Both the position numbers and the translations under genes were made by a program. Below the pieces are notes generated by a model that was given only the letters and a program-made list of their open reading frames with translations, made no database searches and was not told where the DNA came from. A stretch of DNA of 64,000 bases from Terriglobus roseus DSM 18391 (lineage in GTDB: Bacteria > Acidobacteriota > Terriglobia > Terriglobales > Acidobacteriaceae), in NCBI RefSeq assembly GCF_000265425.1, contig NC_018014.1, positions 4,030,001-4,094,000 of the forward strand. The letters are read 5' to 3'. This document shows, piece by piece, positions 30,864 through 33,519 of this stretch. Positions within the stretch are counted from its first letter, which is position 1. Each line of letters opens with the position of its first letter.

Positions 30864-31181
30864 TTACTTAGCAGTGCCGTCGCTTACGACCACTGCGCCT
30901 TCGCCGCGCATACGATCGAGAAACTCCACCACATCGTGCGCCACGACGTCAGGCTCTGCCTGGTACTCGTTCGCTAACGCCTGGCACAGGTCGGCCAGGG
31001 AACGCGGCTGTTCCATCAGCTCCCAGATCCTGCCGCCCGTCTCGGACAAGCTGATGCAGGTGCCCGTCTCCGCGCTCATCATCACGTATTCCTGGCCGAC
31101 CCATGCGGTCAACCATCCCTCACCGCGTCCGACGACCGTGCGGTCCTGGATCTCCAAAGTCATAGGAAAAGGATAGTCCAT
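30864..31181 (-). CDS. PqqD-family protein (RiPP recognition element, lasso B1-like)
   Basis: This small 105-residue protein has the winged-helix PqqD fold (WVGQEYVMMSAETGTCISLS, then GGRIWELMEQPRSLADLCQA). Such proteins bind the leader peptide of ribosomally made peptides and present it to processing enzymes. In lasso-peptide clusters the equivalent is B1, the partner of the B2 protease encoded two genes upstream. It is the last gene of the run B2, HPr-kinase-like, PqqD, 20 bases after the kinase-like gene. No precursor peptide gene is visible nearby. Confidence 0.87.
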   Translation of the reverse strand: MDYPFPMTLEIQDRTVVGRGEGWLTAWVGQEYVMMSAETGTCISLSETGGRIWELMEQPRSLADLCQALANEYQAEPDVVAHDVVEFLDRMRGEGAVVVSDGTAK

Positions 31182-31201
31182 AACCGGTCGGTGAAAGCGC
31201 T

Positions 31202-32164
31202 TTACCGGATACCTGCCCAGTGGGCTTCCAGCACATCCAGTGACTCCGCAGCCCTGCTGAAATCCATGGGCCGTGACAGCCGAAAAACACCCGCGTGGCG
31301 TTGCAGGGCAGCCGATGCAGCAAAGTAGGTTGGCACCATCTGCATGGCCTTCACCAGAGCCGGACGGTAGGCATTCACAGTCAGCAGCGACATCGACTCC
31401 GCAGCGTTCAGCGGCTCCACGGTAGCCGTCGCCCCCGCCTCGGCGGCATGCAACATGTAAACGCCGCCCACGATACGGGGCTTCAAATCCACGCTGGCCG
31501 GCGCCATGTAGAACTTCTCTGCGTCATGGCGAATCCGCGCGTCTTCCGTCGCAGTCCACCGCAAATGATCGACGGACCCGGACCAAAGCTTCAACATGCG
31601 GCCATCGGGATAGACGGAATACCGGTCGTCCGCGTCCGGACTCAGGTTGCAAACGTCATCGTTCAGCAGCGGATATCCGCGCTCACTCAACATCGCCGCC
31701 ATCGTCGACTTTCCCATGCCGGACGCGCCGCAGAACAGCATGGCACGATCGCCAACCGCAACCGCGCTGGCATGCAGCACCACCCGGCCACGCTGCTGCA
31801 GCAGGATCGCGAAACACGTGCCAAGCAGGTACAGCGTCAGGTCTCCGGGATCGCACGTCGCTGCAGGCTCCAGCAGAATGCTGCTGCCGCCCGTCACATA
31901 CACCTTCATCAGGTCACGCAGCCGCAGCAGGAACTCGCCTGGTGCAAATTCCCAGTCCCCGCCGACTCTCGTAGCCGCTGCAAGATGCGCAGGCACCTCA
32001 CCGATCGTGATGGTGACGTCCGGCTCACCACCGCCGCTCGCTTCCGCCAGAATCGCAGAGGGCATCTCGACGTCGGAGCGAACGCTTAATCCCGACATCA
32101 CGTAGTTGTAGGTCGTGACAGGCGTCGCGCGAACGGTTCTGGCAGGGTTTTCAGGCACTCGCAA
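31202..32164 (-). CDS. HPr-kinase-like P-loop protein of a lasso-type cluster
   Basis: This 320-residue protein resembles the HPr serine kinase C-terminal domain. The P-loop is FCGASGMGKSTMAAMLSERG at about residues 143-162, and LLNDDVC provides the acidic residues of the kinase. The N-terminal ~130 residues are a separate domain. Relatives in some lasso-peptide clusters phosphorylate the C-terminal Ser of the precursor (paeninodin type). The start is TTG at 32164 with GAAGGA five bases upstream. It lies nine bases after the B2 gene and is probably cotranscribed. Substrate is inferred from context only. Confidence 0.85.
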   Translation of the reverse strand: MRVPENPARTVRATPVTTYNYVMSGLSVRSDVEMPSAILAEASGGGEPDVTITIGEVPAHLAAATRVGGDWEFAPGEFLLRLRDLMKVYVTGGSSILLEPAATCDPGDLTLYLLGTCFAILLQQRGRVVLHASAVAVGDRAMLFCGASGMGKSTMAAMLSERGYPLLNDDVCNLSPDADDRYSVYPDGRMLKLWSGSVDHLRWTATEDARIRHDAEKFYMAPASVDLKPRIVGGVYMLHAAEAGATATVEPLNAAESMSLLTVNAYRPALVKAMQMVPTYFAASAALQRHAGVFRLSRPMDFSRAAESLDVLEAHWAGIR

Positions 32165-32173
32165 CGGTATCCT

Positions 32174-32701
32174 TCAGAAATTATTACGCGCCACGGGCTG
32201 CGGTACCTCTGGCACGCCCGTCGCTGCGGATTTCGCTTCCGTGCGAGCAAAATAACCCAGCTCCACGCACCCGTAAGCCACGGGATAACCCGTAACCTCA
32301 ACACCCGGCACGCTCAGCCACGCGTGCGTCTCCAGCTCTGTTGATCCTGCCGCCCGTTCACGCAGTGCCCCAAAATGCAACCGCGATGTGACACCCCGCC
32401 GGTGCAGCATCTGCCATCCAGCGAGAGCGCGTGGCAGGCAGACCAGTTCCACCGGCAGATGATCTGCCACGGTGTTCACCGCCCATCCAACATGCTTCGC
32501 GACAATCAATTCGCTCTTTGACGGAAGTTCGCCCTGCGGTGCGGGTGGCAGCAACCGGCCCAGGTAACGGCCAATCCGCGGGAACGGGACCATCCACAAC
32601 GCTACCCGCGCCACAACCAGCCAGAAGATTGCCTCGAGTAACAATGCAATCTTGCGCGGCGGGATCTGCAACAGTTGGCGAAGATAGTGGATCATCCGCA
32701 T
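32174..32701 (-). CDS. Lasso-peptide B2-type transglutaminase-like leader protease
   Basis: This 175-residue protein belongs to the B2 (Transglut_core3) family, which cuts the leader from lasso precursors. An N-terminal hydrophobic segment (LLLEAIFWLVVARVALWMVP) matches the family. The catalytic Cys is in CLPRALAGWQMLHRRG and His in HAWLSVPG. The third (Asp) residue expected just after the His motif is not obvious. I chose ATG at 32701 with AAAGG five bases upstream; GTG at 32707 is possible. It is followed directly by the HPr-kinase-like and PqqD genes. The asparagine-synthetase-like cyclase normally needed for a lasso fold is absent from this window. Confidence 0.88.
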   Translation of the reverse strand: MRMIHYLRQLLQIPPRKIALLLEAIFWLVVARVALWMVPFPRIGRYLGRLLPPAPQGELPSKSELIVAKHVGWAVNTVADHLPVELVCLPRALAGWQMLHRRGVTSRLHFGALRERAAGSTELETHAWLSVPGVEVTGYPVAYGCVELGYFARTEAKSAATGVPEVPQPVARNNF

Positions 32702-32749
32702 CGTCACCTTTCATCATCCCAGCCACGCCGATTCCCGGCAAATGCGCCC

Positions 32750-33415
32750 CTATTTCGCGAAGGGAGAGCTGTCGAAGTTCCGCACGATGTCCGCCACGTC
32801 CACATAGACGGCAAGCGCGCCCGCCTCTTGCAACTCTTCTCTGCGCCAGCCCCCGGTCTGCACCGCGACCGTTCGAACGCCAGCCTTTGCGGCTGCCTCG
32901 ACATCCCACGGGGTATCGCCAAGCGCCAACGCCTCGTCAGGCGAGACCTTTAATAGCTGCATAGCCGCCTGAAAGATATCGGGCTCCGGTTTGGGCTTCT
33001 CGGCGTCATCTGCCGTAGCGTCTTCTTCGATCAGGTCATGGATCTTCAGCAGCGTCTTGAACGCTTCCAGATCTTCCTTCTCGCTCGACGTTGCAACCGC
33101 AATGCGCAGGCCCTGCTGCCGCATACGTTCCAACAGGCGGCGCGCGTCTGCAAAAGGCACAATGCGGTCAATGTACTCGCGATGAAACAGCCGCTTGCGA
33201 AAGGCGTTGATCTCTTTTTTGAGTGCGGGAAGCTTGTTCTCAGGGACAAAGTTCGGCAGCAGATACTCGCCGCCCTTGCCGATCTGCTTCACGATCGCTT
33301 CAAAATCCGCGGGAAATCCAAAATGCTCAAACGTCCGCTGCCATGACTCCGCATGGAAAGCATTACTGTCCAGCAACGTCCCGTCCAGATCGCACAGTAC
33401 TGCCTTGATCGCCAT
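32750..33415 (-). CDS. HAD-family phosphatase (phosphoglycolate phosphatase/phosphoglucomutase-like)
   Basis: This 221-residue HAD enzyme has motif I CDLDGTLLDSN, motif II AVATSSEKED, Lys in EKPKPEPDIF (motif III) and motif IV GDTPWDVEAA. A helical cap lies between residues 15 and 85. It dephosphorylates or isomerises a small phosphorylated metabolite; the substrate cannot be told. ATG at 33415 is supported by GAGGTGA six bases upstream. It is followed by the B2 gene after 48 bases and preceded by the cNMP-kinase gene after 104 bases, so it may be part of the maturation operon or a separate housekeeping gene. Confidence 0.87.
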   Translation of the reverse strand: MAIKAVLCDLDGTLLDSNAFHAESWQRTFEHFGFPADFEAIVKQIGKGGEYLLPNFVPENKLPALKKEINAFRKRLFHREYIDRIVPFADARRLLERMRQQGLRIAVATSSEKEDLEAFKTLLKIHDLIEEDATADDAEKPKPEPDIFQAAMQLLKVSPDEALALGDTPWDVEAAAKAGVRTVAVQTGGWRREELQEAGALAVYVDVADIVRNFDSSPFAK

Positions 33416-33519
33416 CAATCATCACCTCAACCGAGGCATTGGATGCAGCCACCGCAGATGGATGTGCTTCGATCAGGCAGGCTACCGTGCCAGCCACCGC
33501 CATAAAGCAGAGAGATTCC

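Follow-up and report, generated by a model that had tools for sequence, protein, structure and literature searches.

A B2-kinase-B1 gene trio as the probable trans-acting part of a dispersed lasso peptide pathway of the paeninodin type in Terriglobus roseus

Three adjacent genes of Terriglobus roseus, encoding a B2-type leader peptidase (B2), an HPr-kinase-like peptide kinase (K) and a PqqD-type leader-recognition protein (B1), probably form the trans-acting front half of a paeninodin-type lasso pathway that is dispersed over the chromosome and would serve several scattered precursors. The pathway looks dispersed rather than incomplete. Supporting this reading are the identities of the genes, their intact open reading frames (ORFs), the synteny of the trio, of the cyclase and of two loci that encode precursors, the presence of motif-bearing precursors, and the linkage of the parts in relatives. 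The DNA that was analysed (hereafter "the window") is a 64-kb stretch, G000:C1:4030001-4094000, of the source genome (G000), whose assembly is a single contig (C1) of 5.23 Mb with a contamination estimate of 9.37% despite that contiguity.

The B2-K-B1 trio and its surroundings

The trio occupies positions 30864-32707 of the window, on the minus strand. B2 (32174-32707) matched NF033537 (lasso_biosyn_B2) with 69.5 bits (cut-off 33) and PF13471 with 64 bits (cut-off 26); a PDB sequence search with this protein returned no match. B1 (30864-31181; 105 amino acids), a leader-recognition protein of the RRE type, scored 74.4 bits against PF05402 (cut-off 23.4) and 57.8 bits, below the cut-off of 80, against NF033536 (lasso_PqqD), and its closest PDB sequences were the lasso B1 proteins 9x90_B and TbiB1 (5v1u). 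While the family matches were good for these two proteins, those of K (31202-32164; 320 amino acids) were confined to the P-loop area and lay far under the cut-offs: 42.8 bits for TIGR04352 (HprK_rel_A; cut-off 200), 26.6 bits for PF07475 (cut-off 33.3) and, in a partial match at the P-loop region only, 23.8 bits for TIGR00679 (HprK; cut-off 240). At the curated cut-off, K did not match the full HPr(Ser) kinase/phosphorylase HprK domain, and the equivalog cut-offs of the NCBIfam HPr-rel-A system (TIGR04352/TIGR04353) were likewise missed (42.8 vs. 200 and 16.9 vs. 35 bits). K does carry the motif LHAS...GASGMGKST...NDD, which is of the His-Lys-Asp-Asp type described for the kinases of this pathway (PMC9266682) and is kept in the window and in the relatives G151 and G031. 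The first-pass annotation had described an adjacent B2-type protease, PqqD-type protein and kinase-like P-loop protein as lasso-type maturation genes; the arrangement is present as described, and the assignment is supported.

The intergenic gaps are short (9 nt between B2 and K, 20 nt between K and B1), and the start of B2 lies 42 nt downstream of a HAD-hydrolase gene on the same strand (32750-33418), so cotranscription of the trio is plausible. The hydrolase serves here as a marker of a conserved site, and we claim no pathway role for it. The trio is convergent with SelO. As the first-pass annotation had noted, an ORF scan of the window revealed neither a cyclase gene nor, among the small ORFs with W/Y/F-x-x-P motifs, a plausible precursor; no linked exporter or isopeptidase gene was seen. 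A whole-genome search showed the B2 of the window to be the sole copy in G000.

The third catalytic residue of B2 had earlier been called not obvious, and our alignment agrees. Cys90 (in CLPRAL) and His128 (in HAWL), whose codons we computed from the ORF to lie at 32438-32440 and 32324-32326 (minus strand), occupy invariant columns; at the column of the canonical Asp, the window protein has Gly. Kinase-associated B2 proteins, those of complete clusters included, mostly have Gly at this position, whereas those of kinase-less clusters mostly have Asp, within HAWVEVDGxVVND. Judged from the alignment, the missing Asp is a trait of the kinase-associated B2 clade, and it does not serve to define the kinase-type pathway. 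Because the absence of Asp is typical of that clade, we rejected it as a sign of inactivity or decay.

A separate cyclase and scattered precursors

A genome-wide profile search recovered two lasso-type cyclases in G000, both outside the window. One of them, hereafter the separate cyclase, is encoded at G000:C1:2272076-2273986, 1.79 Mb from the trio, and scored 624.6 bits with the cyclase alignment. Its top NCBIfam match was NF033535 (lass_lactam_cya), at 150.5 bits vs. 123.6 for asparagine synthase; this is below the curated NF033535 cut-off, as was the score of a cyclase from a complete canonical cluster. The ATP-binding PP-loop motif, LSSGFDSS, is retained. In G000, G151 and G031 the gene is flanked by tRNA-Ser(gga) on one side and by an RND pump on the other and is thus syntenic in three species. 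The lasso-cyclase profile, applied at E 1e-10, did not recover two further PF00733 matches in G000, at 4253958 and 4717730.

That a precursor might be encoded elsewhere had also been suggested, and the genome-wide search of small ORFs found at least three in G000, all unlinked and 0.73-1.16 Mb from the trio. In complete kinase-type clusters of the family, precursors are small ORFs with an invariant W-x-x-P motif and usually a terminal Ser, while precursors of kinase-less clusters mostly have ADE-like tails. A first profile, built from cluster-linked precursors only, matched unlinked ORFs at G000 C1:4880435-4880629 (E 2.5e-5) and C1:4791820-4791975 (E 2e-4), as well as one in G151 (E 6.8e-4) and, more weakly, one in G031. 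A refined profile together with a signature scan added the third G000 precursor (C1:5221250-5221399) and others in G151, G031, G154, G156 and G128. The additions are built in the same way, and their last residue is a Ser, which lay outside the second profile. No precursor match below E 0.1 was found in G150, G155, G157, G159 or G095, genomes that lack K, B2 and the cyclase.

The scattered precursors share a layout: a W-x-x-P leader, 15 or 16 residues from the Trp to the predicted core start, Ala or Thr at -2 (mostly Ala, not the usual Thr), an Asp that falls at position 8 or 9 of the core, and a last residue of Ser. The predicted cores in G000 are SGTNNASDDLFTFAS, NGQTGTLDGILINIGNGPILGLAS and AQFVAGAFDGTYLSPDTQQNPLQS. 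AGGAG-like ribosome-binding sites precede the start of several of these ORFs. The regex signature by itself would yield about 4.5 chance matches per 5.2 Mb of Markov-shuffled sequence; we rejected it as stand-alone evidence and counted it only alongside profile and synteny. Because of this weakness, the third G000 precursor rests on synteny: its locus corresponds to the second of the G151 loci, the nearest flanks sharing about 83-84% identity. The G000 locus at 4.79 Mb is likewise syntenic with the third G031 locus. At such syntenic loci the leader motif and its position are conserved and the cores are divergent. In G128, G154 and G156, a precursor lies immediately upstream of a separate cyclase; the leaders of these three are almost identical, and the G128 core is different.

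Large TonB-dependent-receptor-like proteins (OMP_b-brl_4; L277:3359-6868 and L278:9423-12902) are encoded within a few kb of two of the scattered precursors. Genes of this kind are probably common in the phylum, and their proximity may be due to chance.

Proposed pathway and competing explanations

Reasoning by analogy with paeninodin (PMC9266682) and Bsf (PMC10368454), we infer an order of steps, a phosphorylation site, a cyclisation and the use of multiple substrates. B1 would bind the W-x-x-P leader of the unlinked precursors, and K would phosphorylate these peptides; the most likely site is the C-terminal Ser, the alternative being a Ser within the ring, as for BsfK. B2 would then remove the leader by cleaving behind the Ala/Thr(-2)-x pair, and the separate cyclase would link the freed N-terminus to Asp8/Asp9. 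At least three scattered precursors, and probably also a B2-less cluster at 1.25 Mb, would share a single trio with its single B2. Phosphorylation of the product is likely, because the His-Lys-Asp-Asp-type motif is kept and because linked and unlinked precursors alike end in Ser. We put at roughly even the chance that the system is a combinatorial, fully dispersed factory, in which a single B2-K-B1 trio and one or more unlinked cyclases would process several precursors whose cores diverge between species. Counted against the dispersed pathway are the Ala at -2, the B2 without Asp, the cut-offs missed by K, B1 and the cyclase, the weakness of the regex signature by itself, the lack of a linked exporter or isopeptidase gene, the descent of the six co-occurring genomes (see below) from just two lineages, the near-saturation of synonymous sites, and the relocated B1 of G031. 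Contiguous clustering, which is usual for the kinase-type pathway without defining it, was not found in G000.

The 1.25-Mb cluster (G000:C1:1250799-1257639; L008:7800-14640) offers a different role for the trio. This second lasso-type cluster encodes a precursor (predicted core, SGTVNTPYDGSTGSTIYAS), K, B1, a cyclase, an APS kinase and a sulfotransferase, with a collagen-like gene between its cyclase and B1, and its product is perhaps a sulfated peptide. The cluster has the look of a hybrid, since its kinase groups with those of the G148 and G152 clusters but its cyclase with the separate cyclases of Terriglobus. The trio might do nothing but complete this cluster, the separate cyclase and the scattered precursors being unrelated to it. 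We consider this unlikely. The cluster does lack a B2, of which the window holds the only genomic copy, and its cyclase belongs to the same clade as the separate ones; however, it has its own K and B1, which would make those of the trio redundant. Moreover, no orthologue of the cluster was seen in G151 (which has one kinase and one K-type cyclase), where the trio is nonetheless kept, and scattered precursors also occur in G151 and G031. Elsewhere in G000, a third HprK-like protein (L104:8539-9537; G000:C1:1363538-1364536) has a very long branch and weak relatives in other Terriglobus.

Could the trio instead remove leaders and phosphorylate, yielding linear phosphopeptides and no lasso? The cyclase is unlinked to the trio, and the lasso product is a prediction; both facts lend this idea some room. 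Still, the separate cyclase is retained across three species, evolves under purifying selection and keeps its ATP-binding motif, the acid at core position 8/9 is kept in the precursors, and a kinase of the same type adjoins a cyclase in relatives. We therefore hold the linear-phosphopeptide explanation to be very unlikely. Of an earlier suggestion that the product is non-lasso and perhaps phosphorylated, the kinase motif and the terminal Ser favor the phosphorylated part, and the syntenic cyclase and the acid at core position 8/9 speak against the non-lasso part.

Comparison with relatives favors the dispersed pathway. The order ALDH-LuxR-RR/TrxR-HK-HAD-B2-K-B1 is conserved in G151, where B2, K and B1 are 74%, 79% and 71% identical to those of G000. 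In G031, HAD-B2-K is kept at the site and B1 has moved to another locus. G161 and G162 have HAD-B2-B1 at the site, K being absent there; a related K, with 42-47% identity along the aligned part, lies beside a cyclase and a precursor at another locus. Some relatives are metagenome-assembled genomes (MAGs), with possible frameshifts in the G161 K and the G162 cyclase. The HAD-B2 junction is common to these four genomes, so that, with G000, the site is conserved in five species. Because the K lineage adjoins either B2-B1 or a cyclase and precursor, depending on the species, the trio and cyclase loci are tied together. In six of 19 Terriglobus genomes the trio or K-B2 has no cyclase beside it, and all six encode a separate K-type cyclase; as the six represent two lineages, this co-occurrence is supporting, not independent, evidence. 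Between G000 and G151, with synonymous sites near saturation, dN/dS was 0.13 for B2, 0.12 for K, 0.24 for B1 and 0.11 for the separate cyclase.

In the kinase tree, the proteins of G000, G151 and G031 fall next to loci L131-L134; in L131 and L132, from other Acidobacteriota, K, B1 and B2 of the same types are found together with a precursor and a cyclase. The proposed neighbourhood comparison did, then, turn up complete clusters of the trio's types, without supporting a reading of the trio as decayed. The existence of such clusters and the loss of parts in some relatives (G095 retains B1 only) notwithstanding, decay of a once complete cluster that was stripped of its cyclase and precursor is the least probable explanation of all, as the trio's ORFs are unbroken, purifying selection acts on them (dN/dS 0.12-0.24), the site is conserved in five species, and the missing parts are relocated within the genome.

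One of the loci in that part of the tree, L133, comes from a Candidatus Riflebacteria MAG; its kinase and cyclase nest within Acidobacteriota, which suggests gene transfer or misbinning. Stand-alone B1 genes were also seen in G095 (L103:8744-9055) and G031 (L102:9363-9674), each between genes of a two-component system and a large gene resembling those of outer-membrane receptors. The two proteins agree at 87 of 103 residues, although G095 lacks a K of the trio's type, a B2 and a lasso-type cyclase; they have possibly been repurposed.

Relation to known systems

By sequence, the parts are those of a known kinase-type lasso pathway, and it is their dispersed layout that is unusual. The clusters for paeninodin (pade) and related phosphorylated class II lasso peptides of Paenibacillus, Thermobacillus, Sphingobium and Bacillus contain A, K, B1, B2 and C parts, as does Terriglobus. 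In paeninodin, PadeK phosphorylates the C-terminal Ser of the precursor (reviewed in PMC9266682); similarly, the Terriglobus precursors end in Ser, and K keeps a motif of the His/Lys/Asp/Asp type. Unlike the paeninodin-type systems, which have been described as clusters, Terriglobus has its trio, its cyclase and each precursor at separate chromosomal sites. The bsf system of Bradymonas sediminis is likewise a kinase lasso system with a non-Thr residue at -2. There, B1 speeds phosphorylation and assists B2, and BsfK phosphorylates ring Ser3 of a precursor with a YxxPxL leader motif and Ile(-2); Ile/Val(-2) leaders also occur in Acidobacteriaceae (PMC10368454). That system is clustered, whereas the Terriglobus one is dispersed, with W-x-x-P and Ala/Thr(-2) in its leaders.

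Unclustered lanthipeptide proteases provide a case of a RiPP maturation enzyme that is encoded far from its precursor and acts in trans (PMC8960859). Apart from the difference in class (lanthipeptide vs. lasso), only the final protease is remote in those systems, while in Terriglobus the dispersal extends to the precursors and to every enzyme and binding protein: cyclase, B1, K and B2. In the prochlorosin-type lanthipeptide systems, one enzyme set acts on several unlinked precursors, whose leaders are conserved and whose cores diverge. The enzymes and chemistry of those systems differ from the present ones, and only three to four precursors were seen in Terriglobus. In the open-access literature searched, we found no precedent for a dispersed or unclustered lasso pathway.

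Lasso peptides are usually mined as compact gene clusters. If the layout proposed here is real, cluster-based mining would overlook the Terriglobus pathway along with its peptides, and orphan B1, B2, kinase or cyclase genes elsewhere may be functional parts, not debris. Terriglobus would also present a natural case of several unlinked lasso precursors sharing enzymes, in which the range of substrates that a kinase-type lasso system tolerates could be tested directly.

Another arrangement of a RiPP system with a kinase was observed in G017 (L069:5597-9635), where a kinase, B1 and B2 are accompanied by another small Y-x-x-P ORF and by a protein that, judged by eye, is radical SAM-like.
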